From a virus, in IMG/VR virus record IMGVR_UViG_3300045241_000101, positions 1-21,297 of that record: a DNA stretch of 21,297 nt. One strand, 5' to 3'. A program made the position numbers and the translations under genes. Below are positions 1 to 19,848 of the stretch, piece after piece (positions within the stretch are counted from its first letter, which is position 1; every line of letters starts with the position of its first letter). A model generated the notes under the pieces. That model saw only the letters and a list, made by a program, of their open reading frames with translations, had not been told where the DNA came from and did no database searches.

Positions 1-541
1 CGATGACGACGTTCTTCTGGTCCTTGAAGTGCCAGATAGCGGCGCGGATGTTGTCGAAGTAGTCATAAGGCCCCGTCACATAGAAGTAAGACGCTTGCTT
101 GAAAGCTGAGGCGTAGTCGTCATAGAGCTGCGGCCAGTTTGTCCAATCGGCTACGAAGTCCCTGGGCTTGTCGAGGAAGGGGGACTTGTTCTTCGGAAGG
201 AGGCCGAACTTCACCGGGACTTGGGCCACGGTCCTTAGATCGCCGCCGTACGCCTTGGGGTCGCCGAGAAGCATTTTCTCCTTTCCAAAGACATAGTTCG
301 GGTCCATGAGGACGCTTTCATGGGCTTCCCCGGCTACCGCTGTTGCATACGCGGTACATTCGTCGTTCTGAGGTTCGTAAAAAGCTTGGTTCTTGATTTC
401 CAAGGGTTCAGAAACGAGCCAATCGGTCAGAGGGATGTCGGTAGGCTTCGGAAGGGAGAAGAAGCCGCCGAGCTTAAAGTCGCGCTTGTCTTTCTTGAGG
501 GGCTGAAGGGGGGACTTAGGGTGAAGGGGAAGGCGAAGCAT
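1..541 (-). CDS. Papain-like (C1 family) cysteine peptidase, 3' end cut by window edge
   Basis: I translated 180 codons without a stop from an ATG six bases after the preceding gene's TAA; the gene runs off the left edge. Residues 49-68 carry a papain-type nucleophile motif: IKNQ, a short loop, then PQNDECTAYATA with Cys62 as likely nucleophile and Gln52 or Gln58 as oxyanion-hole candidate. After it come a GKEKMLLGDPKAYGGDLRT stretch and a VKFGLLP stretch, matching the 'K...GDP..yG.DLR.a...l.k.G..p' layout of bacterial and phage C1 peptidases. The catalytic His and Asn would lie beyond the window, so activity cannot be judged. There is no signal peptide. As the last gene of the fibre block it could process virion proteins, act on the host surface, or take part in lysis; the role is inference. 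Confidence 0.72.
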   Translation of the reverse strand, partial: MLRLPLHPKSPLQPLKKDKRDFKLGGFFSLPKPTDIPLTDWLVSEPLEIKNQAFYEPQNDECTAYATAVAGEAHESVLMDPNYVFGKEKMLLGDPKAYGGDLRTVAQVPVKFGLLPKNKSPFLDKPRDFVADWTNWPQLYDDYASAFKQASYFYVTGPYDYFDNIRAAIWHFKDQKNVVI

Positions 542-1894: not shown

Positions 1895-3414
1895 GTGAGT
1901 GTGCCGGACTGAATGGTGCAGTAAGAGAACCCGCCGTCGTTCTTGTCCCGCATGATGAGACATGCAGGTATGCCGACATCACCGATTTGGAGTGTGCTTG
2001 TGGAGGTGTTGGTGTTAACGCTGAACATTTCTGCGCCGCTGGTGGACGAAGCGACGGTGAATATCTTTGCAGGCGTGGTTGTGCCGACACCGACATTTCC
2101 TCCGCCGGTTGCGAGTATGGCTTGGTTCGTCGATTTGATTTGGGTGCTCGTTACGCTCGCGAACTGGACGTTCGCGGCGGTATCGATGTTCTGAGGCGTG
2201 GAGAGAGTGAGCTTGGAGGGGTTGCTGCTGGAAGCTACGTTCACCTGATTGGTTGTCCCTGCGATGGTCCAGGGGCCTATGAGCGTGTTGAGGGTGGAGG
2301 ACGCTTGGAGCTGGCAAGTGGTGCAGGTAAGCGTGAGGTCGCCGGAAAGCGCTCCGCCTCCGGCGAGCGGGGAAGTTGTATTGACATTCCGTGCTGCGGG
2401 AACCAAGCCCCATGTAGAGGAGGGCGTGTTGCTCCATGTGCAGGTCGAAGTACCGCAGAGGATTTGGTTAATACCGGCTGAGGAAGTTGCGTAGGTAAAG
2501 GCGTTGCCCGTCGCCGTGCCGCCTCCGGCAATGATAGTGGATGTCACATGGGGTTGAGTATTTGTAATTGTCGAGGTGCCGTTTAAGGTTGAGACACTAA
2601 CTCCGTTTCCTGCGGCGATCGTGACGTGCGTCGTTGAAGCGAAAGGCAGAGGGAAGGTAAGCGCATTTTGCTTGGCGTTCCAAGTTGCGGCGGAGGCGAT
2701 GCGGCCGTCCGCGAGAGTTCCTATCCAGACTGGCGTGAAGGTGAGGGTCGGGCCGGAGCCGCCTATGGTGATGCCGAGGTTGGTATCAGTCGAACTGGCG
2801 AAGGTGTATGCGGTGGATGAGAGAGTATTTGCACCAGCGGATATGGTGGTCGTAGTGAAGGAACCCGCGCCGCAGGTCGGACAGGAGATAACACCGTTCG
2901 AGAGGACGATGGGCGCGGTGGAGGAAACGGCGAAGGTGCCGGCGCGGTCGGGGAAGGTGAAAGAGCGTTCGCCAGTAAGGCCGGAGATGTCGAAGTCGGC
3001 CGCGCCGGAGTTTTGCTCGGAGTAGAGCTGGAGAACGTCAGCGGAAGCGACCGTAAAGCCGACACCTTGAGTCGCGGTAGTGGTGCCGAGGTAGAGATTA
3101 AGGGATGGGTTGTCATAGAGATAAAGACTGGCGGCCGTCTTGTCCCAGGTGAAGTTGCTATCGCCGCCAAAAGCCCCGGCGTCGTTGAATTGGATTTGGG
3201 TAGTCGAGCCGCCGGGCGTGCCGCCGCCGGAGCCGCATGAGCCCAATTGGTAGACGAGAGGGTTAACGGAAAGGACCTTGAGGCAGTTGCCGATGTTGCC
3301 GGCAGTCGTGGTCGAGATGCCTGTTCCGCCTTGTTGCGGAAAGAGTACGGTTGCGGCGCTTCCGAGTAGTGGGAAGGAAAGAATCGCTATTCCTAAGGCG
3401 AGGTATTTCTTCAT
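1870..3414 (-). CDS. Cysteine-rich tail-fibre-like protein with signal peptide
   Basis: 514 residues. The ATG overlaps the stop of the upstream gene (ATGA, 3411-3414), which fixes the start. The N-terminus is a clean signal peptide (MKK, then LALGIAILSFPLLGSAA) followed by LFPQQGGTGISTTTAGN, a motif typical of modular phage fibre proteins. The body is Ser/Thr/Gly-rich and repetitive, as expected for a trimeric beta-structured fibre. Near the C-terminus NVGVGTTTPAKIFTVASST precedes a short terminal module with ACLIMRDKNDGG and CNTTACN. Cysteines come in close pairs (CPTC, CTTC, CGTSTC, CNTTAC), which would suit disulfides in an oxidising compartment. The gene ends in TAG inside the next gene's 5' end. 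Role as fibre is well supported in style but not proven; export is inferred from the signal sequence. Confidence 0.78.
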   Translation of the reverse strand: MKKYLALGIAILSFPLLGSAATVLFPQQGGTGISTTTAGNIGNCLKVLSVNPLVYQLGSCGSGGGTPGGSTTQIQFNDAGAFGGDSNFTWDKTAASLYLYDNPSLNLYLGTTTATQGVGFTVASADVLQLYSEQNSGAADFDISGLTGERSFTFPDRAGTFAVSSTAPIVLSNGVISCPTCGAGSFTTTTISAGANTLSSTAYTFASSTDTNLGITIGGSGPTLTFTPVWIGTLADGRIASAATWNAKQNALTFPLPFASTTHVTIAAGNGVSVSTLNGTSTITNTQPHVTSTIIAGGGTATGNAFTYATSSAGINQILCGTSTCTWSNTPSSTWGLVPAARNVNTTSPLAGGGALSGDLTLTCTTCQLQASSTLNTLIGPWTIAGTTNQVNVASSSNPSKLTLSTPQNIDTAANVQFASVTSTQIKSTNQAILATGGGNVGVGTTTPAKIFTVASSTSGAEMFSVNTNTSTSTLQIGDVGIPACLIMRDKNDGGFSYCTIQSGTLTCNTTACN

Positions 3415-4187
3415 TGGGCTTCGTAATCTATGACGGGTGACTGGCCTCCTTGTGGCGGGGCTGGATTCACGGTAAAGGTCCGCCCGGAGAAGGTGTAATC
3501 AACATTGTTCTGTAGTCTTGCTCCGTTCAAGAAGAGGCGGACGGAATCGGACTTCGGATTTGGGTATGTCGTGGGGATGGTGAAGGTGGTGTTAACTCCG
3601 TCAACGGTGCCGTCCAAGATGATTTCGGTCTTCTGGTTTATGCCTCCCCGGAAGAGAGGTACGGACCCGGCGGTCGGCCGCTGTACGAAGAGCTTGGAGA
3701 GGTCGATGGGTCGGCCTTCCGAATCGACGAGGGTTACGCGATCGATGGCGGGCTCGTTAGCCTGTGCAGAAGTTAGGGCGTCTATGACGGGCTGGATGGC
3801 ATCTTGTATGTCGGCTTTACTGAGGGGCTGGTACCAGGATGGACGCGTTATGGAAACGGTCTCCGTTGGATTGAGTACGGTCACGTCGAGTTCTGTAGGA
3901 TGGGCCGGGTATTCTGGGAGCTCTATTGGTTCGGGAGGTTCAGGGTCTTCGCGGTTCGCAATAGCCTGAAGTATCGGCGTCAGGGCCTTGAGCGTCGAAA
4001 GAGTCTCAGTGAAGGACTCGGCGAACTTCTGGAAGCGGTCGGCTCGGTCTTGGTCGAGAGATTGAGAGGCCTGCTTGAAGAGGTCGAGCATGGCGGCGAG
4101 CTGTGCAGGGTCGAACGGGGCTGGCTGCGGTTCGGGTGTAGGCGCTGGCTTCTGCCCTTTGAGTGTTTTGATGTAAGACTTCTCCAT
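3411..4187 (-). CDS. Fibre or neck-associated virion protein with C-terminal beta module
   Basis: 258 residues, ATG two bases after the stop of a 23-codon gene. The N-terminal half is charged and proline-rich (PAPTPEPQPAPFDPAQ), then probably helical or coiled coil (QLAAMLDLFKQASQSLDQDR). A second part contains TELDVTVLNPTETVSITRP. The C-terminal ~70 residues carry a recognisable phage structural module: LDGTVDGVNTTFTIPTTYPN, then VRLFLNGARLQNNVDYTFSG and a final VIDYEAQ, the 'dG.VNg.NttFt...v..NG..l..g.DYt.sG' pattern found in many tail-fibre and neck proteins. There is no signal peptide, unlike the two genes downstream. Probably a fibre base or adaptor linking exported-type fibres to the tail; this link is inference. 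Confidence 0.7.
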   Translation of the reverse strand: MEKSYIKTLKGQKPAPTPEPQPAPFDPAQLAAMLDLFKQASQSLDQDRADRFQKFAESFTETLSTLKALTPILQAIANREDPEPPEPIELPEYPAHPTELDVTVLNPTETVSITRPSWYQPLSKADIQDAIQPVIDALTSAQANEPAIDRVTLVDSEGRPIDLSKLFVQRPTAGSVPLFRGGINQKTEIILDGTVDGVNTTFTIPTTYPNPKSDSVRLFLNGARLQNNVDYTFSGRTFTVNPAPPQGGQSPVIDYEAQ

Positions 4188-4189
4188 TT

Positions 4190-4261
4190 CTAGTATTCAT
4201 TAGGCCGACCGAGACAGATGAAGGCTATGAACATGATGACCGCGAGGATGACGCCTATCAT
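4190..4261 (-). CDS. 23-residue single-pass membrane peptide (micro-gene)
   Basis: Found by hand in the 70-base gap between two larger genes. The ATG overlaps the upstream stop as ATGA (4258-4261), the frame is 23 codons plus TAG, and the stop lies two bases before the next ATG, so it fills the gap exactly. The peptide starts MIGVILAVIMFIAFICLG and ends RPNEY: one uninterrupted hydrophobic helix with a short polar tail, long enough to span a membrane once. Candidate roles are a small holin, antiholin, pinholin-type lysis factor, or a membrane anchor used during DNA injection. No homologue is recognised. Tight coupling and fit argue for a real gene; its shortness leaves doubt. Confidence 0.6.
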   Translation of the reverse strand: MIGVILAVIMFIAFICLGRPNEY

Positions 4262-5910
4262 TTGCCGAAGATGCGCTTGCCAATGTTCGTGGCGGACGGG
4301 GCCACGTTTTGAAGTTTAGAGCCGAGCGTGGAGAGGAAGTCGCCTACCCTGCCGCTCTTCGAGGCCTTGTTGATAAGGGCGATGGGAGCCACTTGGGGAT
4401 GAGCTGCGGTCTCGACGAGGGAGATTACATCGGTGAGGCTGACGGCGTTCTGACGCTCGGCAATCGGTATCCGGCGGATGACGGCGTTATGGACCGGGAT
4501 GAGTTCTTGGAGCTGCTGGTTTATCGCATGGACCTCCGGGCCTACATCGGTTCCCTCGATGGCCTTTTTGAGGTTCTGGTAGAACTTCGTGTAGACGGCT
4601 TCGGTGGCAGAAGCGTCCTTGTCGGCGAAACCATAGACCCATGAGCCCATCGTGCCTGCGGCGCGTTTGACATCGGTAGCGGTGCCGAGGTCCACCGCTC
4701 CCTGGGGTGCGACTTGGTTCGTTTCGCTCTTTAGCTCCGCGAGGATGTTCTTTATCCTGGCGTTCTGGCCGAAGTTCTTAGCCGTGCTTTCCGAGAGGAG
4801 CTGCTTTTCGGTCTGTTGGTAGACATTGTTAAGATTGACGGTATCGCCGGAGGCTTGCGAGAGGTTCTTGAGCTGGGATGCAAGCTCGTTCATCTTGGAG
4901 TTGGTCTTTTCGAGGGTTTGGTTCAACGATCCGCCGAGGTCGTACTTCTTGAGGGTTTGAACGCTGAATCCGTCCTCCACGTCCTTCGAGGTAGGCCTGA
5001 TGACGCTCGTTTGAATCTTCTCTCCGAGGTGTTCGAGGCCCTTGCCGGTGCCCTGTTTCAGAGAGGAGAGCAAACTACCGACGAAGGGAATCATAGCGGC
5101 GACGCCAGCGGTAGCGGCTACGCCTTCGGAAGGATTGGTCGAATTGGCGAGGTTCGTACCCAATCGACCAGCCGCTCCGAGAGCGCCGGACTCAATCATG
5201 CGGGGGACGGTATTAGCAGCAAATTGTGCGACGCGGCCGGCCCCACCTGCGGCGGCGCGTTCGGCGAGGTTCGCACCAATTTTCGTCCCCACACCAGCAG
5301 AGCCTCCGCCGTAGAGGGTCGCTTCGGCGTTCAGGGTGTTCCCGAAGGCTTGCTTAGCGGTCTCCGAAGAGCCGGAGAGCTGGGCGAGGTCTTCGGCCGT
5401 CATATTGAGAACCCCCATGTTGTCTTGGACGGTCTGGAGCAGTTGGTTCTTCTTGAATCCTTCGGGCATGGTCCGCGCCTGCTGGAGGGCGTGGAGGGTG
5501 GCTTGAGTGAGCATGTTCCGGCTTTCCGTGAGCGAGTCGGTCGCCGGTTGGAACATGAAGGATGAGGCGACGCGCCCGGGTTGTTCGAGCGTCCCGATTA
5601 CACCCCTAGAACCTACGGTGTTCTGGGCTAAGCCGCCGACAAAGGACTGGGCCTTGTAAGAAGGGTCAACTAGACCCCGGAGGGTGTCCGAGAAGAAATT
5701 GGAGGGATGGGCGAACTCGGCTTTGTTAGCTGCGAAGCCGGTCGGAGCGGGTGCGGGAGCAGCAGAAGGTCCGAAGAATTGGTCGGGGGAAACGCCTTGG
5801 TCCTGAGAAACGACTTGGACATCGTTCGTTCCGAGGTAGTCTGAGGCCGGAATGTCCTGCTGCTGTTGTTGGGGCTGAGGGTCTGGGGCGAAGTCCTGTT
5901 CGGGGTCCAT
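4258..5910 (-). CDS. Large internal virion / ejection-type protein (550 aa)
   Basis: The ATG at 5910 shares a base with the preceding stop (TAATG). N-terminal ~60 residues are Gln/Pro/Ala-rich, with a run of five Gln near residue 15. Residues ~75-195 look helical (FFSDTLRGLVDPSYKAQSFV; LTQATLHALQQARTMPEGF). Residues ~195-290 are unusually rich in Ala and Gly with amphipathic character (GSAGVGTKIGANLAERAAAG; GVAATAGVAAMIPFVGSLLS), suited to membrane interaction. The rest is helical with coiled-coil potential and ends NIGKRIFGK. No enzymatic motif, including the transglycosylase Glu region, is evident. Its place after the nozzle and beside another long helical protein resembles the internal core or ejection proteins of short-tailed phages (T7 gp14-16-like position). 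Function is inferred from position and composition. Confidence 0.6.
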   Translation of the reverse strand: MDPEQDFAPDPQPQQQQQDIPASDYLGTNDVQVVSQDQGVSPDQFFGPSAAPAPAPTGFAANKAEFAHPSNFFSDTLRGLVDPSYKAQSFVGGLAQNTVGSRGVIGTLEQPGRVASSFMFQPATDSLTESRNMLTQATLHALQQARTMPEGFKKNQLLQTVQDNMGVLNMTAEDLAQLSGSSETAKQAFGNTLNAEATLYGGGSAGVGTKIGANLAERAAAGGAGRVAQFAANTVPRMIESGALGAAGRLGTNLANSTNPSEGVAATAGVAAMIPFVGSLLSSLKQGTGKGLEHLGEKIQTSVIRPTSKDVEDGFSVQTLKKYDLGGSLNQTLEKTNSKMNELASQLKNLSQASGDTVNLNNVYQQTEKQLLSESTAKNFGQNARIKNILAELKSETNQVAPQGAVDLGTATDVKRAAGTMGSWVYGFADKDASATEAVYTKFYQNLKKAIEGTDVGPEVHAINQQLQELIPVHNAVIRRIPIAERQNAVSLTDVISLVETAAHPQVAPIALINKASKSGRVGDFLSTLGSKLQNVAPSATNIGKRIFGK

Positions 5911-8030
5911 TAGAGAGGTGTGATGGTTCCATTAGCGTTAACCCGACCTTTCTTGCCATTAGCACCTGTGATGATTGAACCTGCGGAGTAGAACTTCCCG
6001 GCGACGGTGATACCCGCCTGGCTGGTGTTGGTCGTTGCGCTCTTGTACCTAAGCTCTTCCAAGCCCTTCTTCCGGTTCTGAATGAACTCTTTGACGATTG
6101 CCATGTTCGAGGCGAAGACTTCGGGTTTCACGCTGGGGTCGGTGACATCGAAGCCGAGTTGCAGCTTCATGTCTGATACGGTGCCTGCGCCCAAAGCCAC
6201 GCCAATTTCGTCGGCGATGAGCTTCTGGGCTTCGTGGAAGTTCGAGACCTTCTTGTTCCCGAGCTGGATGGCTCCTTTCTGAAGCAAGGAGTCGACGCCT
6301 TTCACCCCGAGGCGTTTCACTTGGTCGGAGAGCTGGACAATCTTGTCTATGTTCGGAAGGACGGAGTTGATAGAGCCGATGGCCTTCTGGTAGTACGAGC
6401 TAGAGACGGCCTTGCCTCCGGCGTCGGAAGCTACGTAGTCGAAGTTGGGGTCTATTTTGTTTATAGCGTCGCGGACTTTCTGCATATAGGCAGCGGAGGA
6501 GTTCGAGCGACCCATCGTTTGCCGGATGTTGTAGAGGGTGTTCCTGCCTTCGAGGACGGCTTTCACATCGTTCGCAATGGTGTTCTCTTGGGCCGAGAGT
6601 TTGTGAGTGGCTGGGGCGGAACCTGTGGCTCCGGGAGCGACGGGGCCTTTGCCTGGGGCAGAGGGCGTAGGCGGTGGCGTGGAACCGGGGAAGGCGGGCG
6701 TGCTGTAGCTCGTCGTGCGATAGGTAGTGTTTCCGGCACTGTCCGTCGTCGAGGAGTTGGCGGTCGGGTGCTTGAGCTTCTCTTGGTAGGCCTGGTAGTC
6801 CGTGAAGCTCAAGGGGGTCTGGCCGGACTTCCGAGCTTGGTCTGCGTAGAACTGATACTCACCTACGGTTCCCGTGTATTTCTCGTTCTTTGTGTTGAGC
6901 TCGTCGACTTTGCTTAAGAGCTGCGTGAAATCCACGCCGTATTGCGCCGCGAGGCTCTTGATGGATTGAACGTCCTGCTGTTCATTCCCGGTCAAGGAGT
7001 GGAGTGCGATGTAGCCGATGGAGTCAATGGTCTTCGCGTTGATGTCCTGGGTCAGTTTGAGATTCGTGAGCTTCTGATTCACCGCGTCCTGGGCGTTCTT
7101 CTCGTTCTCCATTCGAAGCTTGTACATGTCGATGACGGACTGGTTCATCTCCTTCGCGGCTTGCTGCGCCTGGCTGTAGGAGTCGTAAAACATCTTCCAG
7201 TCCTCTTGGGTCTGGGCTACCTGAGCCTGGGCAATCAAAGAGTCGCGTTTTCCTTGAAGGTCAGCGATCCGTTGTATGCCAGCGGTCATTTCCGCTGAAA
7301 GCGCGGAGGTCTCGGCTTCGGATTCGTACCGGCTCCTTCCCGCGCGGATGCCGGTTTGGGTGAGTCCGGCAAGGGTCGCGTCGTTGACCTTCTTTTGAGC
7401 CTGTACCTGATTCGCAAAGCTCTGGCTGATGCTGTCGATTAAGTTTTGGTTCGCGCTCGTAAGCTTCGCCCTCACCGCCGCAGCCTGGGTTTGGAACTGC
7501 TGAAGGCTCGTTGCCATCGCTTGCTGGTTGGCGGTCTGAGTAGCGAGGAACTTGTCCCATTCCGTGTTGCCAGTGGAGGCAGGGGTCTGGGTGTCGGTCG
7601 AAGACTGCGTGTTCGTCGTAGGAGCCTGAGTGGTAGAAGGAGTCGTCTGAGTTGAAGGCTGCGTGGTCGTCGGAGAGGAGAGTTGCAACTGGCCGTCTTT
7701 GAAGACGTACTGCTGGCCTTCCTGGGGCGCGGCGGGGTTTGTGGTTGCGGTGCCTGTACCGGCCGGGGCGATGCCGGGTTCCTGTTTGAAGCTCTGAAGG
7801 GCCGTTTGCGTAGCCGTTCTAGCGGGTTCGCTCGTCACGACGGCGGAAGTGCTCGTAGGCGCGAGGGTTTCGGTAGGAGGCTGGTAAAGCGTGAAGCCGG
7901 TGGCGTTCTTCACATACATGTTCCCGTTCGGGTCGTTGTACGCCGTCCCGCCGCCCGGGGTGGTCGTTTCAGTGAACCCCGTCGGCGTCGAGTAGGGGTC
8001 GGTCTGCGGGATGTATTGGGCTACTGCCAT
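5910..8030 (-). CDS. Large helical internal virion / ejection-type protein (706 aa)
   Basis: Starts two bases after the previous TAA (TAACAATG). Layout: ~50 residues with DPYSTPTGFTETTTPGGG; a Thr/Ser/Gln/Pro-rich linker (~50-165, e.g. TTTQPSTQTTPSTTQAPTTN); a long helical, probably coiled-coil part (~165-400, e.g. QQAMATSLQQFQTQAAAVRA); a second Pro/Gly linker (~440-475); and a compact C-terminal domain with INSVLPNIDKIVQLSDQVKR and ADEIGVALGAGTVSD, ending in a small Gly-rich tail. The C-terminal domain looks like one I recall in internal proteins of uncharacterised podovirus-like phages. Tape measure function is unlikely: 706 residues with low-complexity linkers, no tail-tube genes nearby. 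An ejectosome or core role is the best reading. Confidence 0.6.
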   Translation of the reverse strand: MAVAQYIPQTDPYSTPTGFTETTTPGGGTAYNDPNGNMYVKNATGFTLYQPPTETLAPTSTSAVVTSEPARTATQTALQSFKQEPGIAPAGTGTATTNPAAPQEGQQYVFKDGQLQLSSPTTTQPSTQTTPSTTQAPTTNTQSSTDTQTPASTGNTEWDKFLATQTANQQAMATSLQQFQTQAAAVRAKLTSANQNLIDSISQSFANQVQAQKKVNDATLAGLTQTGIRAGRSRYESEAETSALSAEMTAGIQRIADLQGKRDSLIAQAQVAQTQEDWKMFYDSYSQAQQAAKEMNQSVIDMYKLRMENEKNAQDAVNQKLTNLKLTQDINAKTIDSIGYIALHSLTGNEQQDVQSIKSLAAQYGVDFTQLLSKVDELNTKNEKYTGTVGEYQFYADQARKSGQTPLSFTDYQAYQEKLKHPTANSSTTDSAGNTTYRTTSYSTPAFPGSTPPPTPSAPGKGPVAPGATGSAPATHKLSAQENTIANDVKAVLEGRNTLYNIRQTMGRSNSSAAYMQKVRDAINKIDPNFDYVASDAGGKAVSSSYYQKAIGSINSVLPNIDKIVQLSDQVKRLGVKGVDSLLQKGAIQLGNKKVSNFHEAQKLIADEIGVALGAGTVSDMKLQLGFDVTDPSVKPEVFASNMAIVKEFIQNRKKGLEELRYKSATTNTSQAGITVAGKFYSAGSIITGANGKKGRVNANGTITPL

Positions 8031-9418: not shown

Positions 9419-11266
9419 TTATTTTCTAATTGCAAACTGGTTGTCTGGGGATAAGGTGGCGTTCGAGCCATACGCCAGAATCTCCCACTGCTGGTCCACG
9501 TCGTTCGAGCTGTATTGGACCTGGCGTTCGTAGTAATTCTGCTTCACAAGGTCGTGGATGACCCGGAACTTCGGGGTGTTGGAGATGGAGTCGGTGATTC
9601 CGCCGATGGGTTGCTCACCGATAGGGTTCTTGCCGATGGAACCGTCCACCGAGGTCGAGAAGATGATGTCGTCGTCCGCGCCGTCTATGGTTTCCTCGAC
9701 GATGGAGGTAAAACCGCCGAAGTCGTACTTTAGGACGCAGGTTAGCGCGGTGTTCGAGGAGATGTACCCTTCCGTGTAGTGGGCGTCTTCGGACTTCTGG
9801 GCATCCCTTCTCCCGCTGTTCTCGTAAGCAAAAGCCGCGATAGCGTCTATGGGATTCGAGTTGTCGTTGTAGGACCCGTCGAAGAGGTGGTAGGTTTCCG
9901 GGACGGCGTTGGAGTGGCCGTATAAATCGCCGCCGATAATCGCCAGACGCCCGATGGGAAGGACCTGGGGAGCCTCCCAATACTGCTTTTGGATGTTGTA
10001 CATGAGGAGGATGGATTCATTGGGGAGAGCGACGCAGATGTACTGCCGCCAATACTTGATGTGCGCGTTCGTGAAGTCATAGGACTCGAAGTCGGTCTTT
10101 ATCGGGTCGGAGATAGGTTTGGTCTGGGTGGTGTCGATGCTCTCTACCCGGCCGAGTTCGTCCAGGGTGGGTTCGTTCGAGATGTAAACGGTCTTGTTCT
10201 TGATTTTCGCTATTGCTCCCTGCGAGATTGCGGCTTCCCTCGGAGCTGAGGCGAGGCGCTTGATTTGCGCGGTCTCCTTGGTGAGGTCGGAGGAGAGCTG
10301 GTAGGAAACGCGATACCAGAAGTCCTTGCCGGCCGAGATGAACATGAGGGAGCCGTTCTGGTCGCTCTCGTTCGTCTCCGGGGCGAAGCCGACAATTGAA
10401 CCGTCCAAAGTGAGCGTATCGCCTTCTCCGGGGGCGCGGGGACTCGATGATGTGTACGTCAGGTAGTCGTTCTGCTTGGAAATCCACGCATACCTCGAAG
10501 TCGTGGAGGCGAGGTAGAGCTGGTTGTTCAAGGATGAGATGAGGTCGAAGACCTGGGAGGTGGACATGGAAGAGGGCCGGGCCGTGAAGCCTCCGGTCGA
10601 GACTCCTACGACGGTTTGGAAGGCGAGGTCGCCCTGGGCGATCGCGGGACCTGCCAAAGCCGGGTCGGGGGTTACTCCCGTGAGGGTCGTGGAGCTTTCA
10701 CCCCCGGTGTAGGTGTATTCAACGCCGCCGATGGTGACTTTGCGAGGTGTGAGGGAGGTCAAGAACCCCGATGCCGCCCAAGTGCCGGTACCTGTTTTGG
10801 TCAAAGTGTTCGTGCCTACGGAATCTATCGTCGTAATTGCTCCGCCCCAGCGGTACAGGTTCGCGGTTCCATCGACGAACAAAAGCTCGTCTATCTTCTC
10901 GGTGGTGTTCCAAAACTCCGCGAACTGGACAATTGCCGTAGCAGTTAGGCCGGACTTCAGCGTGTACCACGTTCCTAGGTAGGCGAACTCAAGGTCGCCG
11001 TTCGTGTTGAAACGCAGGGGCCTTTCTTCTCCCCTGCATGTAATCCATTCGTAGCTTGAGGAAATCGGGTAAAGGTCGGTCGCTGCGACGCCGTAAAGCG
11101 AGTAGCCCTGTCTCACGCCCACCCTGTCGGCGTCGTTCGTTATGACGTTCTGGGAAGGAGGGACCAAAGTGCCGGGCGGAAGGGCGGTCATGTCCGTCTT
11201 GGACTGGTAGCCGAGGAATGAATAGCCCTTGTTCCTATTGGGGATGAGGTTGAATTGCTCAGGCAT
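9419..11266 (-). CDS. Tail nozzle / tubular protein B-like (615 aa)
   Basis: The ATG overlaps the end of a 27-codon micro-gene by 8 bases. The N-terminus includes the pattern typical of podovirus nozzle or hub proteins: PGTLVPPSQNVITNDADRVG then VRQGYSLYG, i.e. 'a.N...d....v..R.Gy..yg'. The rest is predicted beta-rich, with blade-like repeats (IDELLFVDGTANLYRWGG; NNQLYLASTTSRYAWISKQN; AIAKIKNKTVYISNEPTLDE) suggesting a beta-propeller-like body, as in T7 gp12 and P22 gp10-type nozzle proteins. Length is between those two. It directly follows the connector gene, matching the gp11-gp12 order in T7. Sequence similarity to T7 itself is not evident, so the assignment rests on the N-terminal pattern, fold impression and position. 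Confidence 0.68.
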   Translation of the reverse strand: MPEQFNLIPNRNKGYSFLGYQSKTDMTALPPGTLVPPSQNVITNDADRVGVRQGYSLYGVAATDLYPISSSYEWITCRGEERPLRFNTNGDLEFAYLGTWYTLKSGLTATAIVQFAEFWNTTEKIDELLFVDGTANLYRWGGAITTIDSVGTNTLTKTGTGTWAASGFLTSLTPRKVTIGGVEYTYTGGESSTTLTGVTPDPALAGPAIAQGDLAFQTVVGVSTGGFTARPSSMSTSQVFDLISSLNNQLYLASTTSRYAWISKQNDYLTYTSSSPRAPGEGDTLTLDGSIVGFAPETNESDQNGSLMFISAGKDFWYRVSYQLSSDLTKETAQIKRLASAPREAAISQGAIAKIKNKTVYISNEPTLDELGRVESIDTTQTKPISDPIKTDFESYDFTNAHIKYWRQYICVALPNESILLMYNIQKQYWEAPQVLPIGRLAIIGGDLYGHSNAVPETYHLFDGSYNDNSNPIDAIAAFAYENSGRRDAQKSEDAHYTEGYISSNTALTCVLKYDFGGFTSIVEETIDGADDDIIFSTSVDGSIGKNPIGEQPIGGITDSISNTPKFRVIHDLVKQNYYERQVQYSSNDVDQQWEILAYGSNATLSPDNQFAIRK

Positions 11267-12984: not shown

Positions 12985-13452
12985 CTAGTAGCTGAAGTAG
13001 CAGGTGCGAGCGGTCGACGTGACCATGTTCAGGCCGGCGTTGTACGTGGCGCTGCCGGGAACTGAAGTGATTATGATGGTCGCGGTATCCGCTGCGGACA
13101 CCTTGCCAGTGACTACCCAATCGGAGGTCGAGCTGGCGGAGTTGAAGGACGCGATAACAGGGTCGCCAAGGGCGGCTCCGGTCAGGGTAATCGTCGTCGA
13201 GGCTGCGGTGCTCGAAGAGACGCTGGCCGGGTCCCAGCTCAAGGTCGCACAAGCGTGCTCCAAGAGAGGGGTGCCGGAGTTGACGGTCAGGCTCGCGCCG
13301 GTAACTGCGCCGGAGGACGTGAGGCTATCGACGGTCAGGGCGTTGAAGTTCGTGGTGCCTCCAAGGTTCACTCCCTTGTGAGAGGAAGCGTAGATGGAGA
13401 TACCAACGACGACTACGGCCAGGAGGAGGATGAGAGCGGTTCCTTTTTGCAT
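12985..13452 (-). CDS. Signal-anchored capsid-accessory / fibre-type protein (155 aa)
   Basis: First gene after the capsid gene. MQKGTALILLLAVVVVGISI is a basic start followed by a strong hydrophobic segment, then KGVNLGGTTNFNALTVDSLT. The C-terminal ~95 residues match a beta-sandwich-like module I recall in proteins encoded next to phage capsid genes: ATLSWDPASVSSSTAASTTI, LTGAALGDPVIASFNSASST, VTGKVSAADTATIIITSVPG, ending MVTSTARTCYFSY. The usual form reads 'atwdP.s...g...t..vtGAalGD...asf...l....v.g.VsaadtV.v...N.tg...dla'. Two cysteines, one at the start of the module and one four residues from the end, could pair. Start context CTTAACACCACC-ATG. Probably a decoration or head-fibre protein; topology with an N-terminal membrane segment is odd. 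Confidence 0.76.
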   Translation of the reverse strand: MQKGTALILLLAVVVVGISIYASSHKGVNLGGTTNFNALTVDSLTSSGAVTGASLTVNSGTPLLEHACATLSWDPASVSSSTAASTTITLTGAALGDPVIASFNSASSTSDWVVTGKVSAADTATIIITSVPGSATYNAGLNMVTSTARTCYFSY

Positions 13453-13485
13453 GGTGGTGTTAAGTGTTAGGACCGACCATGAATG

Positions 13486-14412
13486 TTAAGAACCGTTCGA
13501 GCCTACGATGCCTTCGAAGGACAAAGCGCCTACGACTTCGCGGAACTTGCCGCCGTACTTGTAGGTGTCGTTGTCGGAGTATTCCGGCGGAACGAGCCAA
13601 GTAGAAACGGCAGACCGGACATAGCGCATGATGCTGTGGTTCGAGGACAGGAGGAACCAGGCGGAATCAGAGCCGCTGGCCGCCGCGCCGAGCCACTGCG
13701 AAGTGGCGACCTGGATGCCGTACTTCGAGGAGTAGACGTTCATGTCGTTGTTCGCGGTGCCGGAGCGGAGTTCGGACTGGGTGACTTCGCACGCGGTCTT
13801 GAAGAGCGCGGGCGGGACCAAGAGGACGGAAGGCATGTTGCCTCCGACCACGCCGTCCTGGGACTTCATCTCGAGCAACTGGATGATGGCGGTGTTCAGG
13901 GTGGTTTCCGAGAACGCGCCGGTCACTTTGTTGTCGATGGTGTAGCCGCCGAGGTTCGTGTGGGTGTCGGAGATAAGAGCCGTGCCGTCGTAGGTCGTCG
14001 CGGCGCTGAAGGCGTTGCGGAAGACGGCAAAGGCGTTCTTGTCGCGGGTGTTGCGAGCGTTGGCCGCGAAGTTCTTGACCATCTTCTCGTACGCGCCGTG
14101 CATGTTGTCCGCGAAGAACTCGGCCGGGATGATGATGTTCCGGGCGAACTTCGTGACGGTGAACGTCTTGGAGCCGGTCACGCGGGGCTGGCCCTGGGTT
14201 ATCTCGGCCTCTTCAGCGAGGGAATCCCACAAGCCGGAGCCGAGGAAGTTTTCGACTATCTCGGCCGCGCGGTCGGTGGTCTCCTGGTTGAAGACGGAAC
14301 CGGAGTTCGCGTCCACATAGCCGACGTGCTGGGTGATGTTGTGCTCCTGGAGGAACACGTCGTCCAAAGCCGTCTTGACGACATTGGGCGACAACGATGA
14401 ATTCATAGACAT
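13486..14412 (-). CDS. Major capsid protein (HK97 fold, Mu gpT-like)
   Basis: 308 residues, complete. Follows scaffold and decoration genes. Residues ~140-160 carry NAFSAATTYDGTALISDTHT, then NLGGY, and ~195-225 PSVLLVPPALFKTACEVTQS, then ELRSGTANND, close to the 'F..a......dG..Lf...H...gG...sN... LlvPp.L...a.ei..s....g...N..N' pattern of Mu gpT-type major head subunits. The N-terminal part FNQETTDRAAEIVENFLGSG and EEAEITQGQPRVTGSKTFTV also fit. About 34 kDa, usual for the family, with no N-terminal delta domain because scaffold is separate. Start: the first of two nearby ATGs, context CCCTTAACCA-ATG; beginning at the second would only lose two residues. Expected to be the most abundant protein made from this window. 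Confidence 0.9.
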   Translation of the reverse strand: MSMNSSLSPNVVKTALDDVFLQEHNITQHVGYVDANSGSVFNQETTDRAAEIVENFLGSGLWDSLAEEAEITQGQPRVTGSKTFTVTKFARNIIIPAEFFADNMHGAYEKMVKNFAANARNTRDKNAFAVFRNAFSAATTYDGTALISDTHTNLGGYTIDNKVTGAFSETTLNTAIIQLLEMKSQDGVVGGNMPSVLLVPPALFKTACEVTQSELRSGTANNDMNVYSSKYGIQVATSQWLGAAASGSDSAWFLLSSNHSIMRYVRSAVSTWLVPPEYSDNDTYKYGGKFREVVGALSFEGIVGSNGS

Positions 14413-18489: not shown

Positions 18490-19848
18490 TCAGGCGGCTT
18501 TGGCGTAGTTCGGCCGCCACTGCTTCGCCTTGTGGGTCTTCGCGGGGTTCAGCTCGAAGAACATCCGCATCATGAGCATGTCGGCGTAATCCGGGCTTCT
18601 TCCGAGCTGTTCCTTGATTTCGTCCTTCTGAAGAACCTTGAGCTTGCCGTCCTTGTCTGCATCCCGCGATTTGACCTGTTCCAGCTCCTCGACGATGGCC
18701 TGTTTGACCTGTTCGCCCTCGGTCGTGATGGCGAGCCTTCGGAGGTTCACAAGGTCAGCGAGGGTGTAGTAGCACTGCGATTTGAGGTGCTGGTAGTTGG
18801 GCTTCTCCCCGGCCTCCTCGATGGGCGGGAGGTTGGCGACGAAGCCTTTAACGCCTTTGATGTGGTCGACGATACCCCCCCCGATGCCGTCCTCGTCGAT
18901 GATGATGTGGGAGTACGGGATGCCGTGGTCGCGGGCTAGCTCCTTGATGCGGGTCTCCGTCACTTCGGTGCCCTGCTTTGTGTAGGTGTAGACCTTGTAG
19001 CAGTGGAGACCGTTCCAAAGACCGATGACGGTCTTGTCGTTACCGAACCGGGCCACGTCGACGGTCATGTACTTGTCGTCTGAAGCCTCGGCGGTGTTCG
19101 AGAAGAGGTCGAGGATGGCGTCGTACTCAATGAGGGCCGAGGGGTCGTCGTCGTACTCCCAGTTCCCGAACATCAAGCGTTGCCGCGTTGCTTGGTCTTT
19201 GATCTGGGCTAGCTGGTCGCCGTACTCGGTTCCGGTGAAGGGGTTGTCGTTGTAAAGCGCAGGGATGAAGGCGTACTCCGGCGGCAGAGTTCCCTCTTTC
19301 CAAGGTTTGTAAAAGAGGCGGTAGAGGAAGTTCTTTGACGGGTTGGCGGTCAACCCTATCTTCGGGAGGATGCCGTATTCCTTGTTGAGATGCCGGCCGA
19401 CGCGGGACTTAAGAACCTCGAAGGCGAGCTCGTTCCATTCGCCTACCTCTTCCCCGTCGCCCTCGGTGTACTCAAGGGAACCAAAACGCTCGTACAGAGG
19501 GTCGGATGGAAGGTAATCGACATCGAGAAGGTCAATGCGGGAGCCGTTCTTAAACTCGATGTAGTTGTATTGGCCGTTCAGGTGCCAGTCTGAAGGCGGA
19601 ATCTTGTGAAAGGCGCATACCTTCGTCCAGGTAACGAAGGTCGATTGCATTAAGCGTTTCAGTTCTTTGCGACCGATGAACGCTCTGATCCCGGGGTACT
19701 GGTAAGCCCTTACTAATCTCTTCTCGCAAATCCACCAGCTCTTCCCGCCGCCGGCAGCCCCGCCGAACAAAACGAACCGGGTAGTAGGGTCGAGCCACTT
19801 CTGCCAGGCTTCGTGTTGCTTAGGGGTTGGCCGGAGGGTTGGTGTCAC
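18490..19848 (-). CDS. terL: Terminase large subunit
   Basis: 452 residues starting at a GTG that overlaps the small subunit by 29 bases; no other start precedes the ATPase motif. Walker A is FGGAAGGGKS at residues 28-37. The second acidic motif region is GSLEYTEGDGEEVGEWNE (123-140), with EE133-134 the best candidates for the Walker B and catalytic carboxylate; LTANP (166-170) fits the coupling motif. The RNase H-like nuclease domain shows VDVARFGNDKT with Asp264, SHIIIDEDGIGGG with Asp318/Asp320, and RSPDYADMLMM with Asp423, the expected three acidic sites. It translocates DNA through the portal and cuts concatemers. Length is normal for the family. Confidence 0.95.
   Translation of the reverse strand: MTPTLRPTPKQHEAWQKWLDPTTRFVLFGGAAGGGKSWWICEKRLVRAYQYPGIRAFIGRKELKRLMQSTFVTWTKVCAFHKIPPSDWHLNGQYNYIEFKNGSRIDLLDVDYLPSDPLYERFGSLEYTEGDGEEVGEWNELAFEVLKSRVGRHLNKEYGILPKIGLTANPSKNFLYRLFYKPWKEGTLPPEYAFIPALYNDNPFTGTEYGDQLAQIKDQATRQRLMFGNWEYDDDPSALIEYDAILDLFSNTAEASDDKYMTVDVARFGNDKTVIGLWNGLHCYKVYTYTKQGTEVTETRIKELARDHGIPYSHIIIDEDGIGGGIVDHIKGVKGFVANLPPIEEAGEKPNYQHLKSQCYYTLADLVNLRRLAITTEGEQVKQAIVEELEQVKSRDADKDGKLKVLQKDEIKEQLGRSPDYADMLMMRMFFELNPAKTHKAKQWRPNYAKAA

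Follow-up and report, generated by a model that had tools for sequence, protein, structure and literature searches.

Probable tiny membrane-peptide genes in a sieA-like slot between presumed ejection and fibre genes of uncultured short-tailed phages

In phage P22 the genes run in the order 14, 7, 20, 16, sieA and then the tailspike gene 9. Gene 16 ends at position 13313; sieA (13336–13830) follows 22 bases later on the other strand and has an annotated promoter of its own. One report (PMC2629481) treats the interval from 16 to 9, designated immunity I or the ‘ant moron’, as a moron whose content varies. According to a second (PMC10883804), SieA is a protein of 162–164 residues with three transmembrane domains, and mutations that escape SieA fall in the C-terminal parts of gp16 and gp20. 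We find position-conserved, strand-variable genes for tiny membrane peptides in this sieA slot of uncultured short-tailed phages; a search of the PMC library listed no paper on these junction peptides.

The window, by which we mean the whole stretch of DNA analysed, is a linear virus record of 21,297 bases whose late genes lie on the minus strand. Its gene order is tail nozzle, a 453-residue protein, a 706-residue protein, a 550-residue protein, a 23-codon frame and a fibre adaptor (Table 1). Like P22 sieA, the 23-codon frame sits between the last ejection gene (so labelled by position) and a fibre gene, encodes a predicted membrane protein and occupies a slot of variable content; as with sieA, most of the corresponding genes in relatives are convergent with the ejection gene and some have a promoter of their own. 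Unlike SieA, with its 162–164 residues and three spans, the junction peptides have 16–57 residues and one or two spans. The window peptide in particular has 23 residues and one hydrophobic core and is encoded on the sense strand without a promoter, and an exclusion role for it would be assigned by analogy. The locus resembles morons in being a small extra gene between late genes, with differing content among relatives and a promoter spacing in 9 of 25 opposite-strand copies. Unlike a typical moron, the window copy has neither promoter nor terminator of its own, and an ATGA overlap ties it to the operon.

Terminase, capsid and portal-region proteins of the window were identified by profile. The 615-residue protein is placed in the nozzle class by many concordant podovirus-tail matches, all with low TM-scores (0.14–0.28). 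Its AlphaFold model (A1), built from a seven-sequence alignment, is of low confidence (mean pLDDT 56.6); the best PDB matches found by Foldseek are podovirus tails, including the Pan3, T7 and P22 gp10 complexes, and the viral-library matches include several proteins named P22 Gp10. By this class assignment, the phage of the window most probably has a short tail. The ‘ejection’ label of the 550-residue gene follows from gene order, between nozzle and fibre: the protein has no confident profile annotation and no PDB match, and neither kind of match confirms an ejection role for it or for the 706-residue protein. Of the 49 records compared, L169 alone encodes a clear homologue of the 550-residue protein (38% over residues 212–549, E 1.4e-52), the match in L108 being partial. 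The ‘fibre’ label of the 258-residue gene is suggested by alignment with a coiled-coil and collagen-like fibre-adaptor family. At the end of the record, a truncated frame (2–541, minus strand) resembles by eye the N-terminal parts of a 443-residue protein of L107 and a 346-residue protein of L169; it matched no profile and is a candidate lysin or peptidase. The host may be patescibacterial, to go by protein style. Contigs L171 to L173, which come from metagenome-assembled genomes (MAGs), bear mixed labels. One contig of 38,618 bases (L165/L171) occurs both as an IMG/VR virus and in a Pacearchaeota MAG, with identical junction sequence, and its double placement is probably a binning matter.

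Table 1. Features of the window and of the opposite-strand genes in related loci
Feature	Coordinates	Strand	Remarks
23-codon ORF, MIGVILAVIMFIAFICLGRPNEY	4190..4261	(-)	Hydrophobic core of 18 residues beginning at residue 1, followed by the polar tail RPNEY
ATGA stop/start overlap with the upstream 550-residue gene	4258..4261	(-)	ATG of the 23-codon frame at 4261-4259, TGA of the 550-residue gene at 4260-4258; presumed translational coupling
TAG stop and two bases ahead of the next ATG	4188..4192	(-)	TAG at 4192-4190, ATG of the 258-residue gene at 4187
550-residue upstream gene	4258..5910	(-)	Ejection-like by position; homologue in L169, partial in L108
258-residue downstream gene	3411..4187	(-)	Putative fibre-adaptor family; coiled coil, conserved C-terminal domain, collagen-like repeats in most relatives
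706-residue gene	5910..8030	(-)	Second ejection-like candidate by position; L107 homologue 42% over 315 residues
615-residue tail nozzle, P22 gp10 / T7 gp12 kind	9419..11266	(-)	AlphaFold model with Foldseek podovirus-tail matches; anchor for relatives
Terminase large subunit	18490..19848	(-)	First anchor for relatives
Opposite-strand micropeptide genes with TTGAC at 34-38	L107:17504-17620, L128:17649-17765, L148:17576-17656, L182:4558-4632, others		Convergent with the ejection-like gene

The 23-codon frame has the layout that the earlier note had read from the sequence: it overlaps the upstream gene by ATGA, its TAG falls two bases before the next ATG, and it encodes a hydrophobic helix followed by a polar tail. 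This is the build of the single-span class, in which a core of 14–21 residues at or near the start is followed by a short tail. Tiling by itself is weak evidence, because 8,446 of 40,000 shuffles of the gap (21%), made with the ATGA held fixed, yield some tiling frame. The unusual property of the frame is its hydrophobicity. With the ATGA again fixed, a hydrophobic tiling frame (15-residue Kyte–Doolittle mean of at least 2.3) arose in 83 of 40,000 dinucleotide shuffles, and the observed hydropathy of 3.19 was matched in one. The codon choice fits that of the phage's own genes: codon adaptation is 0.62, 15 genes of the window range from 0.53 to 0.75, and random synonymous recoding gives 0.48 (p 0.04). 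No promoter-like site was found by a scan of the window gap, nor was a terminator; a relic promoter suspected by eye on the plus strand of the window did not appear in the scan and was dropped. No homologue of the window peptide was found, and a PHROGs and Pfam profile search returned 0 families, profiles being insensitive at 23 residues. The 23-codon ORF is probably a real gene; that it is translated we regard as highly likely, and we infer that its product is inserted in the membrane.

The tail proteins of the window are too diverged to be traced one at a time: in the viral collection, the 550-, 258- and 615-residue proteins each brought up zero relatives as single queries, and the 706-residue protein two short matches only. 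The terminase anchor gave 80 loci, and an alignment of seven nozzle homologues used as the query gave 64 viral and three MAG loci. The closest nozzle relative is L107 (65%), and L169 has the same gene order as the window; the nozzles of the window and L169 matched nothing in 50,697 named phage records. A scan with an alignment of the 550-residue protein and its L169 homologue returned the L169 record alone, and a search of 50 records gave no match to the 550-residue protein and one to the 258-residue protein. The junction of interest (J) was therefore located by gene order in 31 records, the window among them, as the region that follows the fourth tail gene and the last presumed ejection gene. 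Loci ending before J were excluded, L186 and L187, identical at the junction, were counted once, and L172 is absent from the homologue search.

Twenty-seven of the 31 junctions have a gap of at least 40 bases; the shuffle test omits the other four (L115, L133, L144 and L162). Both forms of peptide gene were required to start with ATG and to reach a 15-residue hydropathy of at least 2.3. A sense-strand gene had to encode 15–75 residues with both ends no more than 8 bases from the neighbouring genes, and an opposite-strand gene 18–75 residues with its stop at −25 to +20 relative to that of the upstream gene. These criteria were fixed after several junctions had been viewed, with the first examples counted within the 27, and for this reason a second sample of 10 gaps was taken through the fibre adaptor.

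A sense-strand peptide tiles the gap in 4 of the 27 junctions, where 300 shuffles of each gap predict 0.0: the window, L105 (MIRIIITIFLVYVLGIISIYFMDKMSKYKI), L127 (MDPLFEELGIFALIYLIAVIIDHL) and L146 (METQIGEIGDADRVFKLVIILTISLFVLHRLGLL). An opposite-strand peptide, convergent with the ejection-like gene and ending at or near its stop, is found in 17, where 0.56 are expected from the same number of shuffles (L107, L108, L109, L112, L117, L125, L128, L135, L138, L140, L142, L148, L153, L154, L164, L165 and L169). Other gaps of the same loci contain the sense form in 0 and the opposite-strand form in 2 of 136 cases, and 210 gaps of the terminase-anchored loci contain three sense and no opposite-strand forms. 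Counted by gene end, the opposite-strand form occurs at 17 of 31 junctions versus 9 of 426 ends elsewhere, and in the fibre-adaptor sample it occupies 4 of 10 gaps (0.45 expected). Junction J is a slot for tiny membrane-peptide genes in this phage group. The earlier note's proposal of a hidden membrane-peptide gene is supported by the hydrophobicity of the tiling frame, by its codon choice and by the presence of membrane-peptide frames in 21 of the 27 gaps, the window included.

The slot is not always filled. Six of the 27 gaps pass neither criterion (L110, L114, L116, L126, L155 and L160), and in L114 and L126 opposite-strand hydrophobic frames reach further into the upstream gene. Over all 31 junctions, a peptide is present by the criteria in 21, mostly unrelated in sequence, and none is present by the criteria in 10. 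Given the six gaps with neither form and the four junctions shorter than 40 bases, the peptide is dispensable across the group. The earlier note had taken a broken frame or an unrelated spacer at the same junction of related genomes as the sign that the frame is no gene. The sense frame is indeed absent in L107, the nearest relative by nozzle, and in L169, the nearest by the ejection-like gene. Both, however, have a hydrophobic frame on the other strand at J, an outcome that the note did not foresee, and for that reason the lack of the sense frame does not make the window frame a spacer. None of the relatives shows the window's own gene under selection. An inversion of one gene between L169 and the window, suggested by the likeness of the two peptides by eye, is not proposed: the pair falls outside the six best window pairs in the shuffle comparison.

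The opposite-strand genes share a feature upstream of their start codons. Among 25 upstream regions, which include four that were added by eye and fail the strict criteria (L114, L126, L192 and L197), TTGAC lies 34–38 bases before the ATG in 9, against a mean of 0.14 and a maximum of 3 in 5,000 shuffles. Within the 100 bases before the ATG, TTGAC occurs in 13 of the 25 (2.5 expected) and TTGACA in 9 (0.64 expected), and of the sense-strand genes of the same loci 2 of 446 have TTGAC at 33–39. The peptides were chosen without reference to a promoter, so the spacing supports the opposite-strand genes as real. Example sites are TTGACG-16-TAGGGT in L107, TTGACA-17-TAAAGT in L148 and TTGACA-16-TAAGGT in L182, with the second hexamer ending a few bases ahead of the ATG. 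With a −35 element this far upstream, transcription would begin at the ATG, and the spacing suggests a host-type promoter making a leaderless mRNA.

Searched as a pattern (TTGA[CT], 30–42 bases, ATG, hydrophobic ORF), the arrangement turned up in 31 rows across 1.93 Mb, of which 13 lie at J, and there were three matches in 1.23 Mb of shuffled control. The rows with TTGAC number 16, of which 11 are at J (L139 duplicates the junction of L140); among those elsewhere, the rows of L193 and L204 lie inside long genes and that of L085 lies in the gap before a 757-residue gene. A two-hexamer sigma-70 score reaches p<0.05 for 5 of the 25 peptides (L117, L148, L164, L165 and L197) and is not significant for most. 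The evidence for promoters lies in the shared spacing and not in sigma-70 scores of single peptides.

One sense-strand pair allows constraint on the peptides to be assessed. L085 and L146 have 76% DNA identity around the junction, and the similarity of their peptides (METETLNELDTFFKIFVGMVVVMLILNRLGLL and METQIGEIGDADRVFKLVIILTISLFVLHRLGLL) is far above that of shuffles (z 8.0). The two differ by a two-codon indel and, over 33 aligned codons, at 43 places, yet start, stop and frame are intact. Simulated neutral change of equal size kept the frame in 0.3% of trials (0.003) and both frame and hydrophobicity in 0.03%. Because 20 of the 23 changed codons among the 33 aligned are non-synonymous, it is the hydrophobicity, and not the sequence, that has been retained. 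Among the opposite-strand peptides, L125/L154 (the second peptide of the latter), L154/L165 and L128/L138 are clearly above shuffled similarity. The L128 and L138 peptides have GW[VW]AIPI in common, within a hairpin-like hydrophobic stretch (LGWVAIPI and FGWWAIPI). The L154 junction, a 350-base gap after a 424-residue gene, contains two tandem opposite-strand hydrophobic peptides, one of which resembles the single peptide of L125.

We propose that the 23 codons of the window encode a single-span membrane micropeptide in a ‘moron’ slot, which would lie between the last presumed ejection gene and the tail-fibre adaptor gene of uncultured short-tailed phages. In most relatives the slot contains another tiny membrane-peptide gene, which lies on the opposite strand and converges with the ejection gene, and about a third of these genes have a sigma-70-like promoter so placed that the mRNA would start at the ATG. 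The window peptide, encoded on the sense strand without a visible promoter, would be made late, through coupling to the ejection gene. Like P22 SieA, it may reside in the inner membrane and disturb injection by related phages, or otherwise alter the envelope of the infected cell; it would be neither the main lysis hole nor a part of the virion. We put the probability of this full account, SieA-like role included, at roughly 0.45. The frame with its hydrophobicity, the enrichment of the slot on both strands, the promoter spacing in relatives and the P22-like gene order are computed results; the inner-membrane site and the interference with injection or change to the envelope are proposed with less confidence, by analogy with SieA. 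Where a membrane-peptide gene lies tail-to-tail with the ejection gene, it is most simply taken for an occupant of a P22-type slot, and interference with injection is our best guess at function. A PF00589 integrase occurs in only 4 of 36 records (those of L107, L109, L153 and L192), so prophage-based exclusion would not be the general use.

The peptide might instead be an accessory to lysis, acting as a pinholin, an antiholin or a single-peptide lysis protein made with the late genes; the earlier note had named a pinholin as one of two candidates. S21 68 of phage 21 is a pinholin, and the window peptide resembles pinholins and small holins in being a small phage membrane protein, here produced late from the sense strand with a single hydrophobic helix and a short polar tail; sense forms also occur in L105, L127 and L146. 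It differs from them in having one span and 23 residues, in lying away from the lysin candidate and in matching no holin profile, or indeed any PHROG or Pfam family. The lysin candidate, so identified by eye, is more than 3 kb from the peptide gene. We regard a lysis role as unlikely, since the lysin-like genes of several relatives have a separate small membrane protein beside them: a 64-residue protein follows an Amidase_2 protein in L114, a 55-residue protein follows a papain/peptidoglycan-binding protein in L165 (weak holin match, 0.071), and a 70-residue protein follows an endolysin-like protein in L107 (no holin match). A 75-residue protein in the record of L116 matches the phrog_1299 holin at 1e-16, the sole strong holin match of the four. 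The host-type promoters of some opposite-strand forms would also fit lysis timing poorly, and the pinholin proposal is not upheld.

Quite improbable, in our estimate, is a small membrane toxin of the type I toxin–antitoxin kind, or an early effector of the host membrane, that has moved into the late operon of the window. KdpF and type I toxins are small single-span bacterial peptides, and they share with the window peptide a length of 20–30 residues, one span and a short tail. Size, single span and, in relatives, a promoter of their own on the other strand would all suit such an origin, but the promoter is explained equally well by a moron, and the window copy has none. The junction peptides further differ from KdpF and type I toxins in giving no convincing Pfam or PHROGs sequence match and in their location in a phage late operon.

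Similarly improbable is that the frame is no gene at all, a chance hydrophobic reading of a 70-base spacer whose real content is the hand-over of ribosomes between two long genes. The frequency of tiling frames in shuffles (21%), the lack of a homologue and the lack of the frame in the nearest relatives would agree with this. Against it stand a hydrophobicity reached in 1 of 40,000 shuffles, a codon choice like that of the phage's genes, and the three other sense-tiled and 17 opposite-strand junctions, where close to none are expected.

Least probable is a helper of the virion or of injection that is produced along with the ejection proteins and works in the conduit (the injection-pore helper of the earlier note, likewise not upheld): a place between ejection-like and fibre genes with presumed translational coupling, and the sense forms of L105, L127 and L146, would accord with it, but most junction peptides are on the other strand (17 of 27 junctions), some with a promoter that a virion component would not need, which makes such a role less likely, and at 10 of 31 junctions the criteria identify no peptide.

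If the proposal of a SieA-like membrane peptide in a moron slot is correct, gene callers miss a recurrent phage gene that is too short for them and often opposite-strand and leaderless. Short-tailed phages in general may then keep membrane peptides in the P22 sieA slot, and the peptides, at about 20 residues, would be very small candidates for blocking DNA injection. A further-reaching version is doubtful: that these are, in a large group of uncultured short-tailed phages, an unrecognised class of membrane peptides of 16–57 residues, encoded on either strand and constant in hydrophobicity and position though not in sequence, the opposite-strand members being leaderless from a host-type promoter. 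Such peptides would be minimal SieA-like exclusion factors that travel with the ejection gene and act on its product, and the window would hold a member captured into the late operon.

Three other loci deserve mention for their content. The junction of L116 (L101:6304–6381, minus strand), where no peptide was found by the criteria, has a promoter-like TGGTATAAT and a hairpin with T-rich sequence after it, as though regulatory DNA alone filled the slot there. A 205-residue frame at L102:612–1229 (plus strand) consists of cysteine-rich repeats of the type NACYACDSCNACRAC, and a 218-residue frame at L089:3–659 (plus strand) of short tandem repeats of the type NSSYVDNSSYLY.
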